A stretch of 43,744 bases of DNA, taken from positions 1 through 43,744 of the IMG/VR virus record IMGVR_UViG_3300028891_000135, one strand, 5' to 3'. Within the stretch, counting starts at the first letter, position 1; each line of letters starts with the position of its first letter. Positions 13,193 through 39,446 of the stretch are shown piece after piece. The notes beneath the pieces were generated by a model, which made no database searches, had not been told where the DNA came from, and worked only from the letters and a program-made list of their open reading frames with translations. A program made the translations under genes and the position numbers. This DNA is from a virus.

Positions 13193-15805
13193 TTACCTGT
13201 ATGCCCTCTCCCTCAGCGGCAGTTGCTCGTAGTGTATCCTCTGGGTTGCCCTCCCCTTTACTGTGGATATATCTTTGCGGGTGAGCTTAATACCTTCCTT
13301 TCTTGCCCTCTGGATAAGCTCCCTGATGGTTTTCCTGATCTTTGCCTTTCTCTTGGCGTTCTTGGTAGTCCTGAGAGTGTAATAGAGGTGGGTCAACATG
13401 TCCATGTACTTCCACCGTCTGGCCTCAAGGGAGGGGGAAAGCTGGAGTTGCTCAAGCACAGACCGCTCTCCAAGGGGCCTGCCGGCAAGGGTCTTGGGAG
13501 TTGGGTAGAGCACCCCCTTGGTAAAGGCCCTCACAGGTGGGAAGAAGCTGACTGCGATGTCCTTGGCCCTTTCTGCCCTTGCCTCCATACTTGGGGCCGA
13601 AATAATGGAAAGAGCTGGGCCAAGAGTAGGACCAAGGAGCCATTCAGGTGGGTAGAGGATGGGAAACGGGTTGAGGCTCTCAGAGATATCCATAGGAACA
13701 TCCAAGTGCAAAAGAGCATGGGAACCGTAGATAAGGAAGTTGCTATCAGGCAGATATATCCCATGGGAAGCCAGCTCCTTCTGGATAGTCCTCCAGAAAG
13801 GAATACTGCCCGTGCCCCCCAAGAAGAGCAAGGAGGCTATGGCCCGGGTGAAGGCCTTCTTGTCCACCTTGTACAGATCCAGAAGCCAGTTGACATAGTT
13901 CTGGCTAAAGGTCTTGAACTGGTAGAAGAGCCTGCCGATGGGATGCTGAGCCATGACAGGGAGGTGGGCCTTGGTGTATGCCCACTGGGTTCTGTCCACC
14001 ATGTTCATGGCAAAGTCGGTGAGTGCCTTTCCCCTGAGCCCCTTGGCGGCTCCCATCTCGAGGCCCGTGGCAAAAGCGAAGACCCGGTTGAACTGCTCGG
14101 ACATCTCAGCCGGGAGGGACAGAAACCGGAGGCCACGGTAGGCCTTGAAGGGCACCTCCCTCACCGCCTCCCAAGCCATATCCGTTACCCCCAGCTTCCT
14201 CGCCATCTCCCAGGTTTCCTTTTTCAGAGTCCGCCTGAGCCCCTTGAGGAAGTACCCGCCTGCAATGGGCCAGAGGGTGAGGATAGGCTGAGTGAGGTTA
14301 AGGATGGGGAAACGAACCCAGCTGAGGCCTACCTTGGCGGCAAATTGCAGGTTGGTGAGGAAGTTCACGGTCTTGTCAACCCAGATGGGATCAATCCGCT
14401 CGGAGAGAGGAAGGGCATTCTCAGCAACCCCCTCCATCGCCTTAAAGTACCCCTTCAGAGCCCTCCCTATGGCTATCCTGTGCATCCTCTGAAAGGCCCC
14501 TTTCTGAACCATGATGTAGTCGAGGGCGAAGTCCCGGAGCAGTGGATCGGCGATGGCAGAGAAGTAAGCACGGGCTTGGGGGAGGTAACTGTCAAGGAAG
14601 ATTTTGTTTATAGCTCCGTCAATATACCTCCGGGTAACATCCAGAATATCCTTCTCATAGGGAATATTGGCCTTCCGAGCTTCCATGAGGGGGCCGAAGT
14701 AGCCTCTTTCTCCTATTGCTTTCCTCACGTTTTCCTCAACCAACTTGGCCTCTTCCAGTTGCTTCCTGAGCCTCTGTATCCTTCCCCGCAACTTGGGCTT
14801 GAGGTCTTCTGAAGCCACTGCCAGCTCTTCTTCCGCCCGCTTCAGCTCCTCCTCAAGCATCTGCCTGTAGCCCCTGAGAGGGTAGTGGGTGAAGTAATCC
14901 CGTCTGTAGCGCAGCTTGGGATCAAAAGAAGAGGCCAGTTCATGAATAAGATCGGTAATCTGCGTCCTGTACTCTTCTGAAGCCTCCTGCATCCACTTGG
15001 GAAACTTCTCTATCTCCTCTGGCTTGAGCTTCGACTTGTGCTCGTGGAAAAACAGGAACTTATCAGCAGTCTCCTCATCCCACTTCTTCACCCCCCACTT
15101 CTCGGCCCACTTCTCAAGCCTGTCCCTGAACTCCTTCCTCACAATCTTGATCCATCGGGTCTTGTCCACTGTGTGCTTATACAGCCTCGTCCCCATCGGA
15201 TCCCGCCTGAGGACAAGCTCAGGAAGGTCCCAGCGGGGGAAGACAGTCCTCACAAACCTGAGCACAGGCCCCTCTCTGTGAGCCACCTCCACCATCTCCT
15301 TTATGTCCCGGGCAACCCACCTTGAGAGCTTATCCAGATGGTCGAACACCTCATCGTCCATTTTCACTATCTTTTTGCCCAAGGGGATCTTTTTACCGCT
15401 TTCGGAAATCACGTGGTCAAGTGCCCGCTCCACAGCATCAAGCTCAGGTAGCCCCTCCCTAACCAACTTTTCCTTCATCCCCTTGAAGGTCTCCCGGGCC
15501 CCTTTAGGCAGATCCTTGAACACACTCTCCACAAGCACCTCCGCAGCCCGCTTCTCCTGCTCCTTCATGAGGGCTTCCATCTCAGGCCTCAGGTTGCGAA
15601 GGAGAGAAGGCTTGCGGAGAAAAATGGAAAGAGCCAGTGCCCCTCCTGCAGCGGCCAACCAGTGGGCGTGCTCCTTGGTAGCCTCCCAGGTCTTCTCCAG
15701 CCATCCCTCCTCTCTCCTCCTGACAAGGCCTTCCTGGGTGGGAGACATTGCTGTAGGAGGGATAAGAGGAGGGGGTAAGACTATTTTCCTTTCTGCTTGA
15801 GCCAC
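13193..15805 (-). CDS. Large virion-interior/ejection protein (gp16-position)
   Basis: 870 aa from GTG 15805 (GGAGG 11 bp upstream), overlapping the upstream gene by 25 bp. Long Glu/Lys/Arg-rich helical regions (EELKRAEEELAVASEDLKPK; EEAKLVEENVRKAIGERGYF), a hydrophobic N-terminal stretch (WLAAAGGALALSIFL) and hydrophobic helices near the C-terminal third (VRFPILNLTQPILTLWPIAG). Size, composition and position as the last of four large genes after a GNAT-like gene mirror the T7 gp13-gp14-gp15-gp16 block, whose products form the internal core and DNA-ejection conduit. No lytic transglycosylase motif was seen. Function by synteny. Confidence 0.65.
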   Translation of the reverse strand: MAQAERKIVLPPPLIPPTAMSPTQEGLVRRREEGWLEKTWEATKEHAHWLAAAGGALALSIFLRKPSLLRNLRPEMEALMKEQEKRAAEVLVESVFKDLPKGARETFKGMKEKLVREGLPELDAVERALDHVISESGKKIPLGKKIVKMDDEVFDHLDKLSRWVARDIKEMVEVAHREGPVLRFVRTVFPRWDLPELVLRRDPMGTRLYKHTVDKTRWIKIVRKEFRDRLEKWAEKWGVKKWDEETADKFLFFHEHKSKLKPEEIEKFPKWMQEASEEYRTQITDLIHELASSFDPKLRYRRDYFTHYPLRGYRQMLEEELKRAEEELAVASEDLKPKLRGRIQRLRKQLEEAKLVEENVRKAIGERGYFGPLMEARKANIPYEKDILDVTRRYIDGAINKIFLDSYLPQARAYFSAIADPLLRDFALDYIMVQKGAFQRMHRIAIGRALKGYFKAMEGVAENALPLSERIDPIWVDKTVNFLTNLQFAAKVGLSWVRFPILNLTQPILTLWPIAGGYFLKGLRRTLKKETWEMARKLGVTDMAWEAVREVPFKAYRGLRFLSLPAEMSEQFNRVFAFATGLEMGAAKGLRGKALTDFAMNMVDRTQWAYTKAHLPVMAQHPIGRLFYQFKTFSQNYVNWLLDLYKVDKKAFTRAIASLLFLGGTGSIPFWRTIQKELASHGIYLPDSNFLIYGSHALLHLDVPMDISESLNPFPILYPPEWLLGPTLGPALSIISAPSMEARAERAKDIAVSFFPPVRAFTKGVLYPTPKTLAGRPLGERSVLEQLQLSPSLEARRWKYMDMLTHLYYTLRTTKNAKRKAKIRKTIRELIQRARKEGIKLTRKDISTVKGRATQRIHYEQLPLRERAYR

Positions 15806-18456
15806 TCTAACAACACCTCCATGGCTATACGCTCTCTGCCACCTGTGATAACCTTGGGGAGAAGCTTCATAGGCATAATCACACCAGCAATGTCGTCTCC
15901 TGAGGCAATTACCAGCGCCTCCTCTGGATCCGTCCCACCAAGTAGCCTGAACTTGGGTATATGCTTGGCCAAGTAGTCGTAATAATCCTTATTCACCAAC
16001 ACCAAGGCCTTGGCATCATCACGTATGAGTACCACAACAGGAATGTCAGCCTCAGTTGCAAATTCCCCTATTGGAGTAAAAGGTTTAAGCTCCTCTCCTT
16101 TGGGGAGAAAGTCCTCCATGCCTTTTGTCTTCGGAGGCTCAACAAACTTCATTCCCCATCCCTTCACAGTCTCTATCCTCTTCTGCAAATTCTTGGGTAT
16201 GTACTCAGGCTTAAGCAACCAGTGCCCATTGCTTATACTGCCATCTGGTAATTTGGGTATACCATGAGGAGGAAAGTTGCCGAATTTGACAACAGAAGTC
16301 TTGGCAGGCTTATAGGGGCGTATGTCCTTGACTATTTTCTTTAACTCCCTGACCTCGTAATCCTTCAGGGAAGTAGCAATGGCAGAAGAAGTAGGCGTTT
16401 TCTCCACCGGAGGCTTAGGTACTTCCCTTACCATTTCCCTTACCTCCTCCACCTTCCTCTCATACTTAGCCTTAGGCGTCCAAGGTGCCCATTTCCTATT
16501 CCCACCTTCCAGAGGCACCATCACAGCCCCAGACCGCATTCGCTTGGGCTTGCCGGCTATGCGGCCTTCGTAGACTTTGCCCCTGTAGTGGACACGGATG
16601 TAGTCACCGGGCTTGAGGCGGGAGTAGGATTCGACGGGTTGCCATCCTGCTTCGCTTACTGCTTCTACTGGCTTAGGTATTTCCTTTACAGGAGGCTTAG
16701 GCACCTCCTTTGGCCCCTTCTCCCCAACCTTTGGCACCTCCACTTTTGGCTCCCTTGGCACTTCAGGCGGGGCCGTTTTGGGCCTTGGAAGTGCCATTTT
16801 GGCAAGATCAGGGTAATCTTTGAGGACCTCTGGAGGAACTGGCTTTCCTTCTTCAAGGGCCCACTTTACAATTTCTTTGTGGGGATCCCTTGGGCCGGGC
16901 TCTCCAAATAACTTCCTAAAGAAAGCCTTCATTGACTGAGGCAAATCTTCTACCCAAAGTACTCCTTCTTTAGGTTTAGAAAACCACATTGCATAAATGT
17001 CTGCGAAGTCTTCTTCTGGCTTATTAGAAATAACCCATCTTCCTCCCTGTTCTTGAGCTATTTTAGGCAATTTCTCAAATTCTTCTCGGACAATCTTTTT
17101 CCATTCCTCTATCTTACTTTGTCCTAAGTGCTTAGGAGTAAAAAGTTCATGGCCAACCTCATGCATATAAGTGAAAGCAACCTCTTCTTTAGGACGACCT
17201 TCTTCCCATAACTCTATTACTCTGCCAGGCATGCGCCTTCCCATAACAATCCTATCTTTGGTAGGCATAGGGCGTATTTCCAATGGTGCCGCCTGTATTT
17301 CCTCGGGTCGCCCAGTAAAATATCGAAAAGAGGATCTTTCCCATTCTTCCCTTGTCATTTCCCAAGGCTCTTTGCCAACCTTCACAGTAGGCTTAGAAAC
17401 GACTTTCTTTGTAGGCGGCTTCAGAACTTTCTCCGCAACCTTCTTCCTATACTCCAGCATCTCCCTCTGCAACTCCGGGTGCTCCCTCCACACCCTCATC
17501 CACTCGGCAGTACCGGGCTTCAGCCCCGCATAAGGCTTGCCGGGCGGCGGGGTGACAAGAGCAGGCTTGGGCAAAGCGGGAGGACGGACAGGAACAAGCT
17601 CCCCAACTGTCCTCTCCACGGGAGCCCTTGGTATTCCCCCCGTAATAACTTCCAACTCCTCCAAAACCCTCTCAGGGGCCTCTTCTGCCAGCACCCTGGG
17701 AGGTGGAAAGAGCCTTGCCACATCCATCACCTCTGCCATAGCCCTCTCAGGAGCCTCTGTGGGGAAGACCTCTGTGATGGCACTCAGGAATTCGTCATAG
17801 TCCTCTGGGGTCTCTATACGCTTGGTAAACTTCTCCCCTACTTCCTCCAGCCGCTTGGCCAATGTCTCTATTTGCTCCGCTGCTGTAACAGGAGGCCTTC
17901 TCACTCCTCTTATGGCTCTCCACAGTCTTCCTGCGCCCCTGAGAATAGGAGGAAAAACGGCCCCAAAGGCAAAGCTCTCAGCCATTCCTTTGGGCGTCAC
18001 TTTCTCTCCCAATGCTACTTTCCCCAAAGTTTCCAGTCCGGCAAAGAGCGCTCCCTCGGTGGCAGCAGCAAGGGGAAGAGACATACCCCCTGTGGGAACG
18101 GCAGCGGCCGAAAGAAGCCCAAAGCGAAAAGCCTCTCTTCCAAGCCTCTCAGCCCCGGTTGGCCTCTTGAGAACCTCCTCAAGCACAGGCCTGACCTGCT
18201 CCACCTCCAACCCTTTTCTCTTGGCTATCTTCTCGGCAGTCCTGTCAATAAGCAATCTTACTCCTTCTTTTACCTGATCCTCAGTATACCCCTTCACTCT
18301 CATAGCCCGGATGAAGCGATCCAACCGGGGGTATTCCCACTCAAGCCTTACCATAGAAGGAGCATACTTTTGCACCAGACGGATGGAAGGGGCAAAAAGG
18401 CCTCTGGCAAAGCGCTCAAGTTTAGTGGGAGGTTCCTTTGGGAGAGGAATAATCAC
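15781..18456 (-). CDS. Virion-interior protein with embedded zinc-metalloprotease motif
   Basis: 891 aa multidomain protein. Residues 1-300: helical with a Gly/Ala-rich membrane-active-like segment (FGLLSAAAVPTGGMSLPLAA). Residues about 425-495: a zincin core TYMHEVGHELFTPKH (HEVGH at about 432-436) followed by KPEEDFADIYAMWF, the usual place of the third zinc ligand and active-site Glu/Asp. Residues about 500-620: Pro/Lys/Glu-rich linker. Residues about 630-690: SH3-like beta segment (RLKPGDYIRVHYRGKVYEGR). Residues about 720-890: a C-terminal domain with GSISNGHWLLKPEYIP, a phage-type domain of unknown role. Synteny places it in the ejectosome. A delivered protease is inferred. Confidence 0.65.
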   Translation of the reverse strand: MIIPLPKEPPTKLERFARGLFAPSIRLVQKYAPSMVRLEWEYPRLDRFIRAMRVKGYTEDQVKEGVRLLIDRTAEKIAKRKGLEVEQVRPVLEEVLKRPTGAERLGREAFRFGLLSAAAVPTGGMSLPLAAATEGALFAGLETLGKVALGEKVTPKGMAESFAFGAVFPPILRGAGRLWRAIRGVRRPPVTAAEQIETLAKRLEEVGEKFTKRIETPEDYDEFLSAITEVFPTEAPERAMAEVMDVARLFPPPRVLAEEAPERVLEELEVITGGIPRAPVERTVGELVPVRPPALPKPALVTPPPGKPYAGLKPGTAEWMRVWREHPELQREMLEYRKKVAEKVLKPPTKKVVSKPTVKVGKEPWEMTREEWERSSFRYFTGRPEEIQAAPLEIRPMPTKDRIVMGRRMPGRVIELWEEGRPKEEVAFTYMHEVGHELFTPKHLGQSKIEEWKKIVREEFEKLPKIAQEQGGRWVISNKPEEDFADIYAMWFSKPKEGVLWVEDLPQSMKAFFRKLFGEPGPRDPHKEIVKWALEEGKPVPPEVLKDYPDLAKMALPRPKTAPPEVPREPKVEVPKVGEKGPKEVPKPPVKEIPKPVEAVSEAGWQPVESYSRLKPGDYIRVHYRGKVYEGRIAGKPKRMRSGAVMVPLEGGNRKWAPWTPKAKYERKVEEVREMVREVPKPPVEKTPTSSAIATSLKDYEVRELKKIVKDIRPYKPAKTSVVKFGNFPPHGIPKLPDGSISNGHWLLKPEYIPKNLQKRIETVKGWGMKFVEPPKTKGMEDFLPKGEELKPFTPIGEFATEADIPVVVLIRDDAKALVLVNKDYYDYLAKHIPKFRLLGGTDPEEALVIASGDDIAGVIMPMKLLPKVITGGRERIAMEVLLEWLKQKGK

Positions 18457-24856: not shown

Positions 24857-26614
24857 CTATGCAGTACGATATAAGCAAATCATCATCAAAGTAGCTGTAT
24901 ATCCCGAAGAGGAAGCGTTTTTCCCATCCACCCTTACCTTTAAAGTTTTAATCCCTGAGGAAGAAATTGTTATATTTGTCTGAGTCCCAGTTGTTACAAC
25001 ATCAGAAGCTGAATATTGGTCAAAGCTTGCCACTTCAGCTCCATCAATATCGATATCAACAATGGGTCTGTCAGAAGCTGCATGATACATGAATTTCAAA
25101 GTATATGTTCCTGCAACAAGGGGAATTTTATAGCTTAAATTATCTCCGTCTCCTCCCGAGCTATTATAAAGAACACTCTGTAGGGGGGCATAAGCCGTAT
25201 CTGACGCAGAATTTTCCCACGTACCTTGTCCTACACTGTCATAAAACCAAGGCCAAATCAGCACATGTCCATTAGCTAAATTACCGTCAACATAGTTCTT
25301 TGTAGCAGCATCTTGGGCATCGGTCGGGTCGGCAAGATTGGTGATCTTGTTATTGTTCATATCAATGCTACCATAGATACTACCCCCATCCCGATACAGA
25401 ACGTATTCCTTCCAACCTTGGTCTGATTTCCACGCAAAAATCTGTGCTATTTGAAACCAGCTTGAGTTGTTATAACCCGTAAAAGTGAACCTTAGCTTTG
25501 AAGCTCTATTCCCCCAAAGAGTGTATTGACGAAACACCTCTGGCCGGTTATTACCACTTATCTCGGCGGCAGTCTTCCACTCTGCATCAATTGAATCATA
25601 TACTTCTACCTTAAAATCTGTCGCATAATTACTCCCTCGAAATGAAATCCCCCATCCATTCATATCGGTTAGGATAGAATGGAAAGTGACCTCCACCGTA
25701 ATAGTTCCTGACGGGTTCTGCCAACTAACACTACCCCCTCCATCAAACAAATTCTCAGCACTTCCTCCAGATGGAGATGGATTAAAGCTTACCGATCCTC
25801 CTCGGAAAGTATTGAAAGCAAGGTGGTTAAGTAGGGGAGTGAGTAAAGGGGTAGTATCAGGGCTTACACGGAAAGGAATGACGAATTTCTTAAAAGCAGG
25901 ATAAAAAGAACTCGTCCCTGCGCTCCAATCTCCAGTCAAAGGAACTGTGCCATCAGCAGCGAGAAAATCAGGATTATGGGCCTCATTGCCGTGCTCTGCC
26001 GGCGTCGGCGTGATTTCTATCCATGAGGTCCCGTTGTCATAGTAGAGCTTTCCAGTGTCTGTGGCGTAAAAATAGCGGTCTTTGGTTCCAGCTGTAGGTC
26101 TATTAGCCTCCACATCAGCAGTTAACCAACCACCTTGAAGCCCCCGAATATCACCACTGAATTCAACCCCATCCTCAGTTGACCTAACTTTTACAACCTT
26201 CCCAGACTGGCCACTATAGGAAGAGGGAGTATCATCAAGGTCAGTAAAATAGGGAGCAGAAGTTGTTACCACAATTTTCCCGTTGGTATTCAGGACTTTT
26301 ATCTTGCCACCCTCAAAGTGCAGCGAATAACCAGGTTGTAAAAGAAGATCTTTAGGGATAAGCCTTCGGGAAGTTCCACCTGAAGGCTTGAGGAACAGGT
26401 TGACAGTAATATTGGAAGATCCTGTGTTGACCAAAATAATAGCAGTAACTGCAGTAGTAGAAGTAGCTGTGAATAAATCTCCTTCTGTATCTGCCAATTG
26501 TCCATCTGCCAATTGGCTAACAGAAGTACCTACAAGGCCATGAATAGTATAGTCTACAACATCGGCTGTTGATGCATATCCTCTAATAACATCTCCCGTA
26601 TCAAGAGCTATCAT
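24857..26614 (-). CDS. Tail fibre / receptor-binding protein
   Basis: 585 aa, Ser/Thr/Gly/Asn-rich. N-terminal repeats and a shared module LDD.PSSYSGQSGK ... TEDGVEF (about residues 125-152) that also occurs in the neighbouring fibre protein. Middle region about 195-210 RYFYATDTGKLYYDNGTSW is a common phage fibre motif. Residues about 275-400 (LFDGGGSVSWQ...; WGISFRGS, RASKLRFTF) look like a galactose-binding/F5-8 jelly-roll. MNNNKITNLADPTDAQDAAT is the classical tail-fibre trimerisation motif, and the last 120 residues form a beta-rich tip. Probable host-recognition fibre. Confidence 0.8.
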   Translation of the reverse strand: MIALDTGDVIRGYASTADVVDYTIHGLVGTSVSQLADGQLADTEGDLFTATSTTAVTAIILVNTGSSNITVNLFLKPSGGTSRRLIPKDLLLQPGYSLHFEGGKIKVLNTNGKIVVTTSAPYFTDLDDTPSSYSGQSGKVVKVRSTEDGVEFSGDIRGLQGGWLTADVEANRPTAGTKDRYFYATDTGKLYYDNGTSWIEITPTPAEHGNEAHNPDFLAADGTVPLTGDWSAGTSSFYPAFKKFVIPFRVSPDTTPLLTPLLNHLAFNTFRGGSVSFNPSPSGGSAENLFDGGGSVSWQNPSGTITVEVTFHSILTDMNGWGISFRGSNYATDFKVEVYDSIDAEWKTAAEISGNNRPEVFRQYTLWGNRASKLRFTFTGYNNSSWFQIAQIFAWKSDQGWKEYVLYRDGGSIYGSIDMNNNKITNLADPTDAQDAATKNYVDGNLANGHVLIWPWFYDSVGQGTWENSASDTAYAPLQSVLYNSSGGDGDNLSYKIPLVAGTYTLKFMYHAASDRPIVDIDIDGAEVASFDQYSASDVVTTGTQTNITISSSGIKTLKVRVDGKNASSSGYTATLMMICLYRTA

Positions 26615-26617
26615 CCT

Positions 26618-27313
26618 TTAATCCCCCAATAATAAAGCATAAAACAAAGCTGTGTTATTAACATAGGTTTTGTTTGCAAGACTATCAGTAAATTCTAATC
26701 CATCTTCAGTTGCCTTCACCACAACGGCCTTTCCCGCCTGCCCTGTGTAATCCGAAGGGGCGTCATCCAGTTCTACAAAGTCAACTCCATGAGGATTGCC
26801 ACTGGTGGTGTTTTTGTGGTCTTCCCAGCCCTTAGCCAAGGAATTGCTCAAGACCTTGTTCTTAGTAGCATCGGTAGAAGTAGTATCCACAGGTTGGATA
26901 CCATGAGGAGAAGAAGCCGGTACATCAGCATCTATATGGCTCCTTACCTCTTGGACTGTGGTGTTATTGTTTCCATCTGTCAACTGGTTGCCAACGTGAA
27001 CATCCTTGAACCATCCCTTCTGCCACTTATAGCTACTAGAACCAAGATCATCTGCCTCATTTTCCTTTGGCTCCACATTGCCACTGGTGGCGCTATGAGG
27101 GACGAGAACATCGTTACGCAAATCCCAAATACCTTGAGGATTAACAGAAGGATCTTTCTCAGAAGCAGTATCTCGGTACATTACAAAGGCTCCCACCCTC
27201 TCTATGGCCTCCACCAGGATCCTAATGGTTCGGTTCAGGTGATCCACCATTTCCTCTGTGGAGGCCACAGGTGGGATCTCAAGCCATTCGCCTATAATCC
27301 TCTGCCTTGCCAC
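26618..27313 (-). CDS. Tail fibre-associated/base protein
   Basis: 231 aa from GTG 27313 (GGAGGAGGCGTTGAATA). N-terminal helix (TEEMVDHLNRTIRILVEAIE) probably attaches to the tail, then repeats with NPHG and HKNTTSGNPHGVD sequences typical of phage fibres, and the module LDDAPSDYTGQAGK ... TEDGLEF shared with the next gene. Acts as the attachment or shaft part of the fibre (inference). Start codon shares a base with the upstream stop. Confidence 0.7.
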   Translation of the reverse strand: MARQRIIGEWLEIPPVASTEEMVDHLNRTIRILVEAIERVGAFVMYRDTASEKDPSVNPQGIWDLRNDVLVPHSATSGNVEPKENEADDLGSSSYKWQKGWFKDVHVGNQLTDGNNNTTVQEVRSHIDADVPASSPHGIQPVDTTSTDATKNKVLSNSLAKGWEDHKNTTSGNPHGVDFVELDDAPSDYTGQAGKAVVVKATEDGLEFTDSLANKTYVNNTALFYALLLGD

Positions 27314-30183
27314 TATTCAACGCCTCCTCCACCTACTGGTTCAGTTGCTCCCCCTATCGGTTCCCATTCTATCTCTAAGCCATAGAATTTGGCAATATTG
27401 CTGGAAATGGAAACCTCGTAGTTGAGATAATGGCCTATCAGGTTGGTGGTGGGATAGAAAGTCCCAAGTGCACCGTAATCAGTCGTAATGGAGACGTTGT
27501 TCTTGCTGTACTCCTTCCCGGTGCCTCCACCGTCCACCTTGAGCGTGATGCTGACTTCCGGGGTGCCCTGAACCTTATGCACTTTGAACTTGAAGCCCCT
27601 CAAGCGGAATTTCCTACCCGGGCCAGCGGGGAAGATCCTGTTGCTTTGGATGAGATTGGAGCTGTCCGGGGAAGGGGAGGTATCATCTGGGTAGACCGAC
27701 TGGAGATCAAGCGGATACTCATAGGGCCCTACATCATACTTAACTGCAATAGCATTCAATCCTTTCTTTGCCCGAGAAGTACTTAGGTAAAAGAAACTGT
27801 CATCAATATGAAGAGTCCGAAAGCGAGGATCTGTACAGAAAGCACTATAGCCGTGTTCATCTATACTCCACTGGCCATCAGAATGTACAACCAATGTATT
27901 GAGACTCCTAATGTTTAAATTACTCTCTCCCACCGGAGAAGCATCACAAGCATAAAAACCATTCTCGTGTTCATATGTATCAAGCAGTGTCAAATTGCTA
28001 CCATCAAATTGGAAATAATACAAAGTGTTACCAGCTGGATACTCTTCACAAGCTACCAATTGCTCTCTTGTCGGCCCCCAACCTATACTTCGGATTCTGG
28101 CTGTTGTAGAGTATGTCGTTACAAGGGAAATTGACGAACCATCCCATTTAAAAAGATAAAGGATGGAAGCACCTCTTGTTCCTACTGCTATATACTTACC
28201 ACATGGAGAAAAACGGGCCTGACACACTTCACCTGACAAAGTATATGTATCAATTAAAGAAAAAGAGTCGGTACTACAGTCATAAACCGCAACTTTGCCA
28301 TCTCCGTTTGAAACCACAAGGTAATCTTCAACTGGAGAAAAATGGCAATGGATGTTACTCGAGCCAAGTGAAACAGTATCAAGCAAAGCAAGGTTGGAGC
28401 CATCAAATCCTAAAAGCCAAATAGTTCCTACTGCTCCAGAAACAACAGCAATTTTAGAACCATCTTTATTAAATGAACAAGACTGGCCTGTATTGGTAAG
28501 TGTATAAGTATCCACAAGCGTTAAATTTGATCCATCCCAAGAGTACACAGAAAAATAAGGCGACTCTCCATGTGCAACAGCTATATAACTACCGTTTGGC
28601 GACCAAGCTACACCGTAGCCTCCTACGTCACCCGGCAGAGTAGCACTTCCCGCTAAACTAAGAGTAGATCCGTCAAATTCATAAACAAAAAGAGCAGCTT
28701 CCTCACCTTTCACAGCGGCAATATAATTACCATTGGGAGAAAATCTAACTTCATCAAGGGACCCGTTGGAAACCTTAGTAAGAAATGAGAGGTTGGCTCC
28801 ATCACTTTTTAATATGTGAAATTCAGGGGCATTCTCCACACCTACAGCTACATACTGAACTGTTGCAACCTCCCTTTCCACTTCTCCAAAAGTCACAAAC
28901 CCACGGTTACCAGCGGTAGAAACAGTCCAAAAATTGTAGCCATAGTAATTATCAAGTGGCTTTTCTGCTCTTAAGATACCCTCAATAGGTTCCCCAATGC
29001 TCTTAGCCAGCCCCCCCACAAACAGTATTACGGATTTAGCAGGAGTCACCATCATTATCCCCGTGGGTATCACCGCCAGTGCAGCAGGGCCTATAACCCC
29101 TATGTCTGCCACCTTCCTGATCTCAAACTGATCGTTGATGGGGCCTACTACCTGATATGCCTCATCTTTGGTAAACACATAGGTGGTTCCCCTGAAGGTA
29201 GCAAGGGCTAAAAGCTCAAGGCCTGTGTCTATGTAGTTATCAGTAGGCCAGTAATCAGGCTGCCAAGAGGAAGACCACCAGAGCCGGCCATCATCGTCTA
29301 CGGCAAAAAGGCGGCCCAGTTGCTCGTTCCATTCAAGGTAGACAATGTCGGAAGGTGGGGGATCATGGTCAGTTGGGATATTCTGGCCCCATTCGCTTTC
29401 GGCTGTGGATACGGTATAACTCGTAGTTTGCCCCGCTCCTGGATTATCAATAGTAGCAATTAGCATATATTCTGTTACCGATCCTCCCAAACCATAAATT
29501 CTAATCTTATCCACTCCCGGTTGCCCCGTGCCGGCTATGTTGCTCAAGTCCACATTCTGGTTGGCCACGGTAACGGCATCCGAAGCAGGAGATCCATTGC
29601 TCTCAATGTCCAGAGAGGAATCGTAATAGGTGTAGCGGAAGTAGTAAGTGCCGTCCAGAGAACCTGCATCTCCTGCAGCGGCAGAGGGAGCTTGGGTGGG
29701 TGCTTCTATACCGAGGTTAAGGGTTGTAATGGAAGAACCCAGCTTGACCTTCTTGGACTTCAGGCTTCCATCTGAACTCCAAGCTCCTATGAAGGCATAG
29801 GGAACTGTGGAAAGGGAATAAGGATTGAAAACAGGGATGTTATATACGGCAAAATCCCCTGCGGTAGTGGGTGTAACATCCGTATAACTGTCACCGTCTA
29901 TATCGTAGATCCTGACATAGTAATGGCCATGCTCGTCAGTGCCCCCGCTTTTCTCCAGCACACCTATGATGACGTAATTCTTGTCTCCGGCACGGGCGGA
30001 AAAAGCCTTAATAGGAAGGCCAAAGTCTGTCCAAGCTGAGGTAGGGATGAGGCTCTGGCCCGGGAGAACCATAAGTGCACCATCGTTGGTAAAGCTTACC
30101 CCACGGAGCTTGGAGGCAAATTCCACTCCCGTATCTCCAACCCCCATGCCCTTTGCTGGTGCCGATATCCACGTCCTCGGCAT
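27313..30183 (-). CDS. Tail nozzle (tubular B-like) protein with inserted 7-repeat beta-propeller
   Basis: 956 aa. Residues 1-430 and 770-956 look like a podovirus nozzle/tubular B protein (e.g. LFAVDDDGRLWWSSSWQPDY; ELLALATFRGTTYVFTKDEA). Between them, about 436-768, lie seven WD40-like repeats of 40-48 aa, each beginning (F/W)DGSxLxLxDT and containing FSPNGxYIAV-type strands (e.g. FSPNGNYIAAVKG, WSPNGSYIAVAHG, FSPCGKYIAVGTR). The chain returns to the host fold at about 765 (LVVHSDGQWSIDEHG). Nozzle proteins themselves contain a propeller, so this one is nested. A receptor-contacting or plug role is inferred. Confidence 0.75.
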   Translation of the reverse strand: MPRTWISAPAKGMGVGDTGVEFASKLRGVSFTNDGALMVLPGQSLIPTSAWTDFGLPIKAFSARAGDKNYVIIGVLEKSGGTDEHGHYYVRIYDIDGDSYTDVTPTTAGDFAVYNIPVFNPYSLSTVPYAFIGAWSSDGSLKSKKVKLGSSITTLNLGIEAPTQAPSAAAGDAGSLDGTYYFRYTYYDSSLDIESNGSPASDAVTVANQNVDLSNIAGTGQPGVDKIRIYGLGGSVTEYMLIATIDNPGAGQTTSYTVSTAESEWGQNIPTDHDPPPSDIVYLEWNEQLGRLFAVDDDGRLWWSSSWQPDYWPTDNYIDTGLELLALATFRGTTYVFTKDEAYQVVGPINDQFEIRKVADIGVIGPAALAVIPTGIMMVTPAKSVILFVGGLAKSIGEPIEGILRAEKPLDNYYGYNFWTVSTAGNRGFVTFGEVEREVATVQYVAVGVENAPEFHILKSDGANLSFLTKVSNGSLDEVRFSPNGNYIAAVKGEEAALFVYEFDGSTLSLAGSATLPGDVGGYGVAWSPNGSYIAVAHGESPYFSVYSWDGSNLTLVDTYTLTNTGQSCSFNKDGSKIAVVSGAVGTIWLLGFDGSNLALLDTVSLGSSNIHCHFSPVEDYLVVSNGDGKVAVYDCSTDSFSLIDTYTLSGEVCQARFSPCGKYIAVGTRGASILYLFKWDGSSISLVTTYSTTARIRSIGWGPTREQLVACEEYPAGNTLYYFQFDGSNLTLLDTYEHENGFYACDASPVGESNLNIRSLNTLVVHSDGQWSIDEHGYSAFCTDPRFRTLHIDDSFFYLSTSRAKKGLNAIAVKYDVGPYEYPLDLQSVYPDDTSPSPDSSNLIQSNRIFPAGPGRKFRLRGFKFKVHKVQGTPEVSITLKVDGGGTGKEYSKNNVSITTDYGALGTFYPTTNLIGHYLNYEVSISSNIAKFYGLEIEWEPIGGATEPVGGGGVE

Positions 30184-30184
30184 A

Positions 30185-30604
30185 TCAGAGCCTCCTGTAG
30201 GCTGAGATGGTGGAGATCAGGTGGGACATAACTGCCTGGAAGAGGGTGAGGAAGAACTGGGAGCGGTCTGGATCTTTCCCTTCCCCTTCGTACATGAAGG
30301 CGAGGTGGAGAGCATAGAGGTAGTGGGGTAAGGTGAAGACCTTCGGGACACCTGAAGCATCAATCCTTGTGCCCACCTTAAGGATGGCATGGATATCCTC
30401 GTTGTCTGCATCGGGAGGAGGCCAAAGGGAGAGGTCAGTTGGATCCCCTTCGGTCTGATACCAGTAGGTGGGAGTGCCCGAGCTTTCGGATTTCCAAGAA
30501 GAGGACAGAGAGCGGGGATCCACTTGGTAGAGCCCAGAGGAATCGTAGAACACATGGATTATGTCCTGTACATCAGCCAAGGGCAGTCTCCTCCTCTGCG
30601 TCAC
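30185..30604 (-). CDS. C-terminal part of a connector/tail-completion protein (split gene)
   Basis: 139-aa frame opening at a GTG (30604) that lacks a ribosome site. The sequence DVQDIIHVFYDSSGLYQVDP, then GTPTYWYQTEGDPTDLSLWP, is the conserved half of a common phage adaptor family, normally preceded by the segment found at the end of the upstream frame. The overlap at 30573-30604 shows a +1 relation between the frames. Probably one protein of about 198 aa. Confidence 0.7.
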   Translation of the reverse strand: MTQRRRLPLADVQDIIHVFYDSSGLYQVDPRSLSSSWKSESSGTPTYWYQTEGDPTDLSLWPPPDADNEDIHAILKVGTRIDASGVPKVFTLPHYLYALHLAFMYEGEGKDPDRSQFFLTLFQAVMSHLISTISAYRRL

Positions 30605-30782
30605 TTACTGTGGTGATGCTGTAGGAGGCCTGGTCGGCAACGGAGCTGACCTTCTTCATGGCCACAAACAGGCCGTAGCTTTCCAAGTGGCTGAGGGCCT
30701 GGTTGGATATCTGAGTCCTGACGTTGCTACTCCAGACCTCATCGTTGGGATCTATGAAGTCCAGGATGTCCTCAAAGGTCAT
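30573..30782 (-). CDS. N-terminal part of the same connector protein (split gene)
   Basis: 69 aa from ATG 30782 (GGGGGCGGGAA). FEDILDFIDPNDEVWSSNVR and VSSVADQASYSITTVSD match the start of phage adaptor proteins, in which ASYSI is followed by a strand and then VxxVxYD(S/G), here found in the next frame. Its own frame ends TALG and stop. Removing one G in CTTGGCTGATG (about 30573-30577) would join both halves as ALADVQDIIHV. Programmed +1 frameshifting or a sequencing indel. Confidence 0.65.
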   Translation of the reverse strand: MTFEDILDFIDPNDEVWSSNVRTQISNQALSHLESYGLFVAMKKVSSVADQASYSITTVSDAEEETALG

Positions 30783-31390
30783 TTCCCGCCCCCAAGTGCA
30801 GAGAGATTGAAACGTGGGTAGCGGAAGTCACTATCCCTGTCTATCCCCAAAGCCAGGTAGCTGGCCTCTTCTATTCCCCTACGGAGCCAGTAGCCTGCCC
30901 TCGCCAACATGTGCTCCTTGAGGTCAACCATAAGGCATCTGCCAACTGCTATGTGGGCCATGGGATAATGCCAAGGGTCGTCAAGTGGAGGATCGGAGCC
31001 ATTGGCAATTTCATCGGGGATGTAGGCGTAGTTGAGGATGTAGTCATGGGATGAAGTAGGCTTGGGCCAGAGGAGAATGTGGGAAGAAGTAAAGGCATAG
31101 TACTGGGGTGTGCCTGTGGTGGAAAGGCCCAAGTTGCGCAGTTCGGACAGGCTCATGGGATACAATCTGGTGTTATCACAATAGAGGCTATAAGGGCAGA
31201 GAAAATCGGACGGGATGTCCAGAGGATAGGTGCCTGAGAAGGAATAGGATTTGAAGAAGGCGTGGAAGAGAGTGGCTAAGACATAGAGAGCAAAGTTGAT
31301 CCCCTTGTAGATCTCGGATTGGGTGTAAAAGACCTTGTTCTCGTCCATCAGGATACGAGAGATGTAGGTTTCCATTTCCGTGCCCGTCAT
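30779..31390 (-). CDS. Head-tail connector/adaptor-like protein
   Basis: 203 aa. N-terminal helix-rich start (EMETYISRILMDENKVFYTQ), beta middle (GTYPLDIPSDFLCPYSLYCD), TGTPQYYAFTSSHILLWPKP and a C-terminal helix. This G.P..Y....I.LWP.P motif is characteristic of phage adaptor/tail-tube-A type proteins. Two of its neighbours share the same architecture, so the region encodes successive rings between portal and nozzle (inference). Confidence 0.65.
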   Translation of the reverse strand: MTGTEMETYISRILMDENKVFYTQSEIYKGINFALYVLATLFHAFFKSYSFSGTYPLDIPSDFLCPYSLYCDNTRLYPMSLSELRNLGLSTTGTPQYYAFTSSHILLWPKPTSSHDYILNYAYIPDEIANGSDPPLDDPWHYPMAHIAVGRCLMVDLKEHMLARAGYWLRRGIEEASYLALGIDRDSDFRYPRFNLSALGGGK

Positions 31391-31396
31391 AGTGCT

Positions 31397-32290
31397 TCAC
31401 CTCTGAGCATCCCACCAGTAGACATCGTGTTTGTAGAGGAAGTCGTCTCCTTTGGGTAATTCAGCGCTGAACATCTCGTCCTTTACCTGATCGGGGAGAT
31501 CCTGGTGCCTGAGGTCATCCTCCCTTGCTATCTGGTACAGCATCTGGGCCTGCTGGGAGGCAAGAGGAATGAGAGAAGCATAGTTGGCATTGCGGATTGC
31601 TGCCATTTGGTAGCAACTGACTAAGGTAAACTGCTCCACCAGATCTTCTGGAAGCAGACAGGTGGCGCTGTCGGAATAGTCTATCTTCTTCACATAGTGG
31701 ACACGGACACCGTACTGCTGGTCAGGAATGGGGAAAAGGCGGATCTTTTGATACTGGTTGCTGTCCTCTCCAACTGGTGCCCAGAGCCAAGGAGGACCTG
31801 TGGTGGTCAACTGGGGATCGAAGCGATCCATGGCATCTCTGGAGCTTCTCTTCACCTTGACATCATGGACTACCGCCTCCACTTCTGCCACATCCGAGGG
31901 AAGAGAGTAGATATGCTGAAAGATGGTGTAACTGCTGCCGGACAGGTCATCTGCCCCCTGATAAGCAGGGGAAATAGTGAGAGAAGTGTTGCCACCAACA
32001 GAGGAGATGGTGTAATAGTACCGCTCATCACCGAAGCGGATGAACATGCCCTCGTGGGAAGAGGTCCAAGCGGTGCCGGAGCCTGTGACAGAAGTGGAGC
32101 CTGAACTTACAGAAACTGTGCCCGTGGAATAGGTGCCCTTGGTGTAGACATAGGAAACCCCTCTCAGAGCTGCCCAAGGCCAAGAAGAGAGGAGGGTCTG
32201 ATACCTGCGCTTGAGAATTTCTTTTACCGCCGCCAAGTCCAGCTCAGGGACATAGCGGTGGATGTTGATTGCTATCTCCAGAAGCGTCAT
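31397..32290 (-). CDS. Tail tubular A / adaptor-like protein with beta insert
   Basis: 297 aa. Adaptor-like helical ends: MTLLEIAINIHRYVPELDLA, YQTLLSSWPWAALRG, and IYSLPSDVAEVEAV...PWLWAPVGEDSNQYQKIRLF in the second half. Residues about 55-115 are a Ser/Thr/Gly beta insert (GTVSVSSGSTSVTGSGTAWT; ERYYYTISSVGGNTSLTISP), a common phage-structural Ig-like module. Belongs to the connector block. Confidence 0.7.
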   Translation of the reverse strand: MTLLEIAINIHRYVPELDLAAVKEILKRRYQTLLSSWPWAALRGVSYVYTKGTYSTGTVSVSSGSTSVTGSGTAWTSSHEGMFIRFGDERYYYTISSVGGNTSLTISPAYQGADDLSGSSYTIFQHIYSLPSDVAEVEAVVHDVKVKRSSRDAMDRFDPQLTTTGPPWLWAPVGEDSNQYQKIRLFPIPDQQYGVRVHYVKKIDYSDSATCLLPEDLVEQFTLVSCYQMAAIRNANYASLIPLASQQAQMLYQIAREDDLRHQDLPDQVKDEMFSAELPKGDDFLYKHDVYWWDAQR

Positions 32291-37603: not shown

Positions 37604-37734
37604 TTTGCTCTTTTAGCAGCCTTCCTCTTCTTGCCAATAGGAATTCCTATGGGGCCTCTGCCCCTACCGATACCAAGGCCTCTACCCATGCCCTTAGACC
37701 TGATCTTGCCACCTGGACATCTCTTCCTTCTCAT
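37600..37734 (-). CDS. Gly/Arg/Lys-rich mini-protein, 44 aa
   Basis: ATG 37734 overlaps the portal TGA (ATGA) with GAGAGGTGTTGAAGCC upstream. MRRKRCPGGKIRSKGMGRGL then GIGRGRGPIGIPIGKKRKAA: RGG-like composition, probably nucleic-acid binding. Ends overlapping the next start. Confidence 0.6.
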   Translation of the reverse strand: MRRKRCPGGKIRSKGMGRGLGIGRGRGPIGIPIGKKRKAAKRAK

Positions 37735-39446
37735 GGCTTCAACACCTCTCCTGACATTCCTTTTGCCCTCATCTCAGCTTCCATTCGCCTTGAGGGCTCT
37801 GGGACTTTTACCACCTTGGTGGGCCTGCCCTGTTGCTGCTGCATCATCTGGGCTTTCCTCTCCAAAATCTCTTTCCTGTGGGGCCACTCGGCTATCTCCA
37901 GCAATGCCTCTTCATCTATTACACCCATGCGGTAGAAGGTAATGGCCATCATGACCTTCTGGATCTTGTTCATGGCGAGAGAGGAGCCTTCGACCACCTT
38001 GAACTGGAGATCCCGGAAGGCGGAATGAAGTTTCTGGCGGTAGTCGCCTTCGTAGTACTTGAGGATGGGGTCCATGATTTGCCTTCTCACCCACTCGTAT
38101 TCCCTGATGTTTCCATCTGGCCCGAGGATCTTGATAACCCTGTCCGTGGTGTAGAACTGAAAGATCCTTGATATCAGCTTCTGGCCTATGCGGGCAAGGA
38201 ATTGTTCAAAGGAACGGGCACGGAGGCGGATGATAGCCTGAGCGGCGATCTGGAGCGACTCAATGGCCACCCCTGAGGTCAGTGCTCCTCTCTCTCCATG
38301 CATTACATCCGTCATTCCGCTTAACACCTGCATCTGAGTTTCAAGGTACTTGACTGCATTCTGGATGTAGGCGGGAAGAGGTGGAGGAGGCTCCCGGCGC
38401 AAGGTCTTACCCGGGCGCACTCTCACGATAGCTCCTGGTTTGTTGGTCAGGCGAGTCCATGCAGTAGGGCTTAGAGCATCTTCCTCGCCAATCCAGACGG
38501 CATTGCAGGTGAGAATGGCATGCTCCACTATGATAGCCATCAGCTTATTGTACATCTCTTGGAGGCTATGGAGATACTCAACCTCGGAAATTCCCCAAGC
38601 ACTATTGGGATTGAAGCTCCAGTCAAACATGTCAATTGGGAAGCGCTCGTCTATGTAGGGGTTGGGCTCGTCCTTGAGAATGAGGTGACCAACACGGACA
38701 ATGTGCCTGCCTCCTGGATACTTGCGCACTGATTGGCCATCTTCAAGCTCCACCCGGCTCCTGTCCTTGATCCAAAACTCCTGCACAAGGCAACGGGGGA
38801 GAATGGCCCTTTGCTCCTTCTCTGTGCCAAAGAGGAGTTTGCGGAGGAAGTGCTTGAAGCCTTTCTCTTCCTCTTCTGCCCCATAAGTAGGCTTTATCTT
38901 GGAAGCCAAGTGGGGATACTGCTCGTCAAGGACGCTCTTGGGAACAACATACTCGTGGATAATGTACTCAGCTTCATCCAGCTGGTTGGCCCGGAGACAG
39001 AAAGGATCAACAAGGTAAACCCGGGGATCGCCTACCACGATGTCAATATCGCCCCTGCCGTCATCTAACTGGGGGTTCCAAACACAGCGGGCAAAGGCAG
39101 CTCCGAAGATGGCAGCTAAGATGAGGAGTTCCTGCTGCTTCTGCTGCCAGTTGCGCTCTTCCCAGAGGGCGGCGATGATGTCCTCAAGCACCTCGGCGAC
39201 AGGCTGGAGATGGTCGTTCCTCGCTACCACACGGATCACAGGGCGGCTGTCGGTGAGGTAAGCTACTTCCCGCTGGATCAGCTCTGCCAAGTGGTTGATA
39301 ACCGCTGAAACCCGCCAGTCCGGGCGCTTGGAGGGCCAGAATTGCCCTCTGTAATGGTTGAGCCAGCGGTCATAGTTCTTGGCCACTTCCTCTTTTGCGA
39401 ACTTAGCTTCCTGGTAAATCTTATCCAAATACTGGTTGAGATCCAA
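37731..39446 (-). CDS. Portal protein
   Basis: 571 aa from a TTG at 39446 (AGGAGGTGTCTTAA 4 bp upstream of the end of the site). Helical N-terminus (YLDKIYQEAKFAKEEVAKNY), NYDRWLNHYRGQFWPSKRPD, IVVGDPRVYLVDPFCLRANQ, a DRWL and IVRVRPGKTLRREPPPPLP segment, IQNAVKYLETQMQVLSGMTD, then the conserved helix AIESLQIAAQAIIRLRARSF. Length and motif series are those of podovirus-type portals, the dodecameric ring at the packaging vertex. Located directly downstream of the large terminase genes. Confidence 0.88.
   Translation of the reverse strand: MDLNQYLDKIYQEAKFAKEEVAKNYDRWLNHYRGQFWPSKRPDWRVSAVINHLAELIQREVAYLTDSRPVIRVVARNDHLQPVAEVLEDIIAALWEERNWQQKQQELLILAAIFGAAFARCVWNPQLDDGRGDIDIVVGDPRVYLVDPFCLRANQLDEAEYIIHEYVVPKSVLDEQYPHLASKIKPTYGAEEEEKGFKHFLRKLLFGTEKEQRAILPRCLVQEFWIKDRSRVELEDGQSVRKYPGGRHIVRVGHLILKDEPNPYIDERFPIDMFDWSFNPNSAWGISEVEYLHSLQEMYNKLMAIIVEHAILTCNAVWIGEEDALSPTAWTRLTNKPGAIVRVRPGKTLRREPPPPLPAYIQNAVKYLETQMQVLSGMTDVMHGERGALTSGVAIESLQIAAQAIIRLRARSFEQFLARIGQKLISRIFQFYTTDRVIKILGPDGNIREYEWVRRQIMDPILKYYEGDYRQKLHSAFRDLQFKVVEGSSLAMNKIQKVMMAITFYRMGVIDEEALLEIAEWPHRKEILERKAQMMQQQQGRPTKVVKVPEPSRRMEAEMRAKGMSGEVLKP

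Follow-up and report, generated by a model that had tools for sequence, protein, structure and literature searches.

The nozzle-type protein analysed here, which forms the tail opening of a short-tailed phage, contains, at residues 439-753, a complete, self-closing seven-bladed propeller of the WD40 type that is inserted into the nozzle core. The protein is encoded in a viral DNA stretch of 43,744 nucleotides (IMG/VR record IMGVR_UViG_3300028891_000135; hereafter, the window). Inserted domains in nozzles are already known. The relevant features of the window, with residue numbers referring to the nozzle protein, are as follows.

27313..30183 (stop codon included), minus strand: nozzle-type tail protein gene, 956 aa (intact ORF; phrog_511; profile match to PDB 8jov_A)
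28870..30183, minus strand: nozzle core, N-terminal part, residues 1-438 (alignment to the sister's core)
29920..29943, minus strand: site of the sister's own insert, residues 81-88, empty in the window (pairwise alignment)
29398..29715, minus strand: best conserved core segment, residues 157-262, read as an Ig-like nozzle domain (76-100% identity per 25-residue block)
27925..28869, minus strand: inserted seven-bladed WD40-type propeller, residues 439-753 (missing from the closest relative; structure match 441-756; GC3 0.273)
28768..28863, minus strand: split seventh blade, N-terminal strands, residues 441-472 (partial HMM match 443-472; model strands 443-448, 455-460, and 465-471)
27961..28758, minus strand: six complete blades of the insert, residues 476-741 (blade HMM; model strands)
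27925..27960, minus strand: split seventh blade, putative C-terminal closing piece, residues 742-753 (repeat pattern; low model confidence)
27316..27924, minus strand: nozzle core, C-terminal part, residues 754-956 (alignment to the sister over 754-950)
30185..30604, minus strand: SU10_adaptor-type gene 1, upstream (PF24175, E 7e-9)
30779..31390, minus strand: SU10_adaptor-type gene 2, upstream (PF24175, E 9e-12)
31397..32290, minus strand: SU10_adaptor-type gene 3, upstream (PF24175, E 1.5e-8)
24857..27313, minus strand: fibre-like ORFs, downstream, 231 aa at 26618-27313 and 585 aa at 24857-26614 (differ strongly from the sister)

The nozzle gene and its neighbourhood

As judged by sequence comparison, the gene encodes a nozzle-type tail protein. 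Its ORF is uninterrupted on the minus strand, and the plus-strand reading of 27313-30183 contains 20 stops. The protein matched phrog_511 (E 7e-19) at residues 154-358, ahead of the insert, and a profile of 62 nozzle relatives matched the PDB chains 8jov_A (E 9e-52), which we take to be from the portal-tail complex of phage GP4, and 26fb_K (E 4e-14); both alignments leave the last third of the profile, with its C end, uncovered. From its strand pattern and the SU10 structure, the best conserved segment of the core is probably the Ig-like nozzle domain.

Three SU10_adaptor-type genes in a row (30185-32290) lie directly upstream of the nozzle gene, compared to the single adaptor of most podoviruses, and by analogy may perhaps form a multi-ring tail barrel as in crAss001. 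On the downstream side, the 585-aa fibre-like ORF has a T7 tail-fibre motif in the middle of the protein.

The inserted propeller

Residues 439-753 are built of tandem repeats of 43-46 aa. Ungapped self-alignment peaked at offsets of 43-46, 87-90, 131-133, 177, and 220-223, and the best score (118) compares with a maximum of 47 over 200 shuffles, by which chance repeats were rejected, and of 35 in the remainder of the protein. Both strand types named in the original prediction were mapped, the (F/W)DGSxLxL-type motif starting at residues 503, 549, 593, 680, and 726 and the FSPNG-type strand lying at residues 481, 527, 571, 615, 658, and 702. The seven-bladed ring of that prediction was likewise confirmed, whereas its seven consecutive repeats proved to be six full blades plus one split between the ends. 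An HMM built from the six insert blades recovered those blades at 476-741 and a partial blade at 443-472, and the partial blade beside six full ones implies a seventh blade made up from both termini of the insert, in keeping with ring closure. The predicted location, at about residues 436-768, was right in place but not in extent, since alignment to the sister nozzle and the structure match set the boundaries at 439-753. The core resumes at approximately residue 754, ahead of a VHSDGQWS motif.

Pfam matches of the ORF were confined to the insert stretch (the Lactonase match starts at 433), where the WD40, Lactonase, eIF2A, and WDR19 propeller models scored above their cut-offs; PF00400 reached 32.4 bits against a cut-off of 27. 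The PDB chains matching by sequence were mostly WD40 proteins, WDR5 and ATG16L1 among them. With the insert of WD40 type by both comparisons, an intein was rejected as its identity.

Structure modelling agreed with this assignment. In an AlphaFold model based on a 62-sequence nozzle alignment (pTM 0.54), pLDDT was ~65-87 per ten-residue block over 471-740 of the insert and ~86-98 over 151-390 of the core. The core was well predicted over 151-400, and confidence was low at 1-89, 411-453, and 740-842, which include both insert junctions and the rest of the putative core propeller. As the original prediction had it, the insert came out as a separate propeller, its residues 441-756 superimposing on the solved WD40 ring 5mzh_A with a Z score of 30.7 (293 residues, 2.7 A). 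Since the closest relative is without 439-753, sequence and structure comparison delimit the same domain. The top Foldseek matches in the PDB were mostly tandem-WD40-ring proteins (TM <0.4 across the whole model), which are uninformative on the mutual arrangement of the core and inserted propellers. No nozzle structures were found among the PDB fold matches listed for the whole model; these lists were filled by the insert, and their lack of nozzles is therefore no evidence against a nozzle fold of the core. Only nozzle rows were used for the final model because, when nozzle and WD40 proteins were aligned together by MAFFT, the majority of WD40 residues usually fell on the core; a single-sequence AlphaFold model (pLDDT 38.7) was set aside.

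Comparison with the sister phage

The closest relative found is the 901-aa nozzle of a sister phage, IMGVR_UViG_3300033141_004895 (loci L002, L006, L015, L196, and L212, which are one contig). It is 75% identical to the window protein over residues 88-438 and 74% over 754-950 and is without 439-753, missing the insert at exactly that point. The repeats thus do interrupt a nozzle-type sequence, as predicted, and a relative that lacks them defines their limits.

The two phages are largely collinear, and identity is 90-96% across the capsid, portal, adaptor, and terminase genes (93-95% for the adaptors). Further genes diverge more, some to 34-57% identity, so the nozzle is not the sole changing gene between the sisters. 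The sister nozzle contains an insert of its own at a different site, with five propeller-like repeats that differ in kind from those of the window. The nearest matches of this insert in phage records come from marine phages, among them Lentibacter ICBM2 and Roseobacter CRP-13. Identity between the two nozzles is high at 176-350 (80-100%) and 851-950 (84-100%) and low at 26-150 (28-52%), 351-425 (52-68%), and 751-825 (36-50%); in this alignment, the parts near both insert sites are the most variable. The GC3 of the window insert is below that of all 30 other listed window genes, the next lowest being the downstream fibre-like gene (0.350), and the sister insert has a GC3 of 0.299, compared to 0.50-0.54 for the cores. 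That both inserts are GC-poor relative to their cores suggests two separate, recent acquisitions.

Other differences between the phages were observed. In place of the 231-aa and 585-aa ORFs of the window, the sister has a single fibre-like ORF of 622 aa. Its portal ORF (L194:5203-7962) has 919 aa compared to 571 in the window (37731-39446), owing to an in-frame insertion of ~340 aa; this may be an intein, given a LAGLIDADG_3 match within it that falls short of the cut-off (E 9e-4). At 15781-18456, the window has an ORF of 891 aa that matched neither Pfam nor PHROG and has ~200 extra residues (~353-551) and a longer C end compared to the 449-aa ORF of the sister.

Distribution among nozzle relatives

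The core profile identified 80 nozzle relatives, with ORFs picked by overlap with the profile match. Their lengths were 498-672 aa in 63 cases, >700 aa in six, and <470 aa in 11, several of the latter being cut off. The six long relatives are the sister (L015), L046, L051, L080, L052, and L032. In the distant relatives L046 and L051, a LamG-like domain near the N end marks a third insertion site, and structural PHROGs matched there in each of them; Laminin_G_3 matched L051 there (E 3.5e-14), and L046, which had no Pfam match at this place, is nevertheless 47% identical to L051 over its length. The 1147-aa relative L080 (4638-8078) has a C-terminal extension of ~600 aa with repeated beta-rich units recognized by eye and no Pfam match.

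When 90 relative ORFs (the 80 above and ten added loci) were scanned with the HMM of the window blades, none matched, so that the view that all relatives carry the repeats, which would have turned them into a normal part of the nozzle, is false. An HMM of the sister insert matched, among the same 90 ORFs, the sister and, marginally, L020 (E 5e-4). All doubtful rows were kept in these scans: among the added loci, the ORF picked for L187 is apparently in the wrong frame and those of L183, L184, L185, and L191 are cut by locus ends, and L190 and L054 are apparently one contig. The A5 alignment left out truncated ORFs, ORFs <490 aa, L080, L052, L032, duplicates, and, by hand, L059.

The insert alone yielded eight pattern matches and no relatives in viral_contigs, core alignment A2 yielded 58 matches and no relatives in genome_contigs, and the insert was absent from the records of four relatives, G001-G004 (0/4). 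A capsid alignment search returned 17 loci including the sister; among the 16 others, the core profile found one nozzle, L206, of 618 aa and with no propeller match. The adaptor alignment search added no relative beyond the known sister. The best match of the insert in phage records had 34% identity, with no close relative there. Free-standing WD40 genes occurred within the stored flank of 4 of 80 nozzle loci, a weak association. Such proteins form a large phage family (L103-L182), 381 of 382 pattern-matched stretches encoding a relative of the MW202701 protein. A further locus, L192:1045-3708, in a Mariprofundaceae MAG, encodes an 888-aa ORF with ~270 residues of another kind followed by nozzle-type sequence.

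Comparison with known nozzles and other propellers

According to the accessible text of the structural reports, the nozzles of T7 (gp12), SU10, and crAss001 (the muzzle) are built on a seven-bladed propeller from which additional domains extend (PMC6702177, PMC9509320, PMC10172136). These are ring proteins that follow adaptors and have domains added to a propeller core, an architecture that the window protein probably shares. In contrast, the domains described there are Ig-like, beta-barrel, or crass folds, and no second propeller is mentioned in the same text. The phrog_511 proteins (PH1 gp47, KF-1 gp42, and Amaethon) have a homologous core that is equal in length once the insert is discounted but are without the propeller. 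The same repeat type as in the insert occurs, in register and at ~30-34% identity, in free-standing WD40-repeat phage proteins (MW202701 UOF80687.1, phrog_19311), which, however, are separate genes, roughly twice as long or longer, and lie outside any nozzle.

Propellers are also present in the receptor-binding proteins of phages phi11 (Gp45), PRD1 (P2), and PhiKZ (gp131), where, in the part of the source covered, they are exposed on the host-facing part of the virion (PMC4901313). As described there, the phi11 and PRD1 rings are five-bladed, compared to seven here, and belong to trimeric or peripheral proteins rather than to a DNA gate. No published nozzle with an inserted propeller was found in the portions covered of the literature on propellers or WD40 repeats in nozzles and phage tails, which included few subscription journals.

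Position and possible function of the insert

By strand count, the window insert would lie in the b-c hairpin of nozzle blade 6 and that of the sister in the b-c hairpin of blade 1, with the LamG-like domain of L046 and L051 before blade 1. In the accessible text on SU10, nozzle blades 4-6 line a channel of 25-31 A and a fibre-dock loop extends from blade 1 (PMC9509320), and in that on T7, the blade 6 loop of the nozzle propeller is the narrowest gate (PMC6702177). Simple outward display of the window insert is therefore uncertain.

The original prediction suggested that an added disk near the tail tip could contact the host surface or control DNA release. Of these, host contact is the better guess by analogy and variability. 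Placed at the tip of the b-c hairpin of one blade, the insert would fold as a separate disk, present in six copies around a hexameric nozzle. The six disks would be exposed on the tail and would bind a glycan or protein ligand on the cell surface, giving the phage an adsorption contact additional to the fibres, and phages would exchange such domains like fibre tips while the DNA-conducting core stays unchanged. We consider that this accessory adsorption role has about an even chance of being correct. It is favoured because the insert varies between phages with near-identical main structural genes and does so alongside the fibre gene, because two other nozzle relatives have a LamG-like (concanavalin-type) counterpart, and because propellers occur in known receptor-binding proteins, as far as the cited text goes (PMC4901313). 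Insertions in the crAss001 muzzle are likewise proposed, in the text covered, to contact the cell (PMC10172136).

Of the alternatives, the least improbable, although still rather doubtful, is that the disk serves as a docking platform, fastening another virion protein (a needle, a fibre, or an accessory spike) to the nozzle. Most WD40 rings act as scaffolds for protein binding, window and sister have different fibre-like genes, and docking among phage proteins would give much the same variability pattern as adsorption; the fibre-dock loop described for SU10 is on nozzle blade 1, the probable blade of the sister's insert (PMC9509320, accessible text). Against docking, the adaptor genes are nearly identical, the 167 N-terminal residues that the fibre-like ORFs have in common (67% identical, window vs. 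sister) show no sign of a new docking partner, and the LamG-like inserts of other nozzles look more like glycan binders. Control of DNA release, with the disk additionally plugging or clamping the gate, would fit a blade 6 position, given the T7 gate loop noted above, and is nonetheless improbable because a 75%-identical core exists without the window insert; most relatives are without any insert, and six disks are too large for a channel of the width reported for SU10.

An enzymatic role, with the propeller acting like a lactonase or glycanase at the cell surface, appears slightly less probable still. The Pfam Lactonase model matched above its cut-off (E 2e-7) and the 6-phosphogluconolactonase folds 1ri6 and 6nau_A align well to the insert; however, WD40 structures rank above these folds, no catalytic residues were identified in the insert, and WD40-type rings are mostly non-enzymes. 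Equally slim is the chance of a neutral or selfish decoration, brought by recombination and with no selected role: the low GC suggests recent arrival and the insert was found in none of the 90 relative ORFs, but the reading frame, six blades, and split closure are all intact, and the sister apparently acquired a comparable domain in its nozzle gene by a separate event. Finally, the repeats might be the ordinary nozzle propeller with no insertion at all, given that known nozzles, in the text covered, do have a seven-bladed core. This is next to impossible, being contradicted by the sister alignment, which continues on both flanks without 439-753, by the lengths of relatives (641 aa for the window ORF without its insert, compared to 647 in PH1, 606 in MW202744, 631 in MW202665, 625 in Amaethon, and 628 in KF-1), and by the absence of blade HMM matches.

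Possible implications for host recognition

If the disks of the accessory adsorption reading do bind the host, the DNA-retaining ring would itself bear exchangeable adhesion domains, recognition and release would be coupled in one protein, and prediction of host range from fibre genes alone would miss the nozzle contribution. Sisters that share their main structural genes at 90-96% identity and differ in nozzle inserts provide a natural experiment for the host-binding idea. More broadly, we tentatively propose, as a possibility still short of an even chance, that the nozzle propeller's loops serve generally as a socket for exchange: short-tailed phages would swap propellers and lectin-like domains at at least three sites of the DNA-gating ring, so that part of host recognition would be encoded in the gate and inherited separately from the fibres. 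From the two sisters, this tail part looks like a place where domains, probably in contact with the host cell, can be exchanged.
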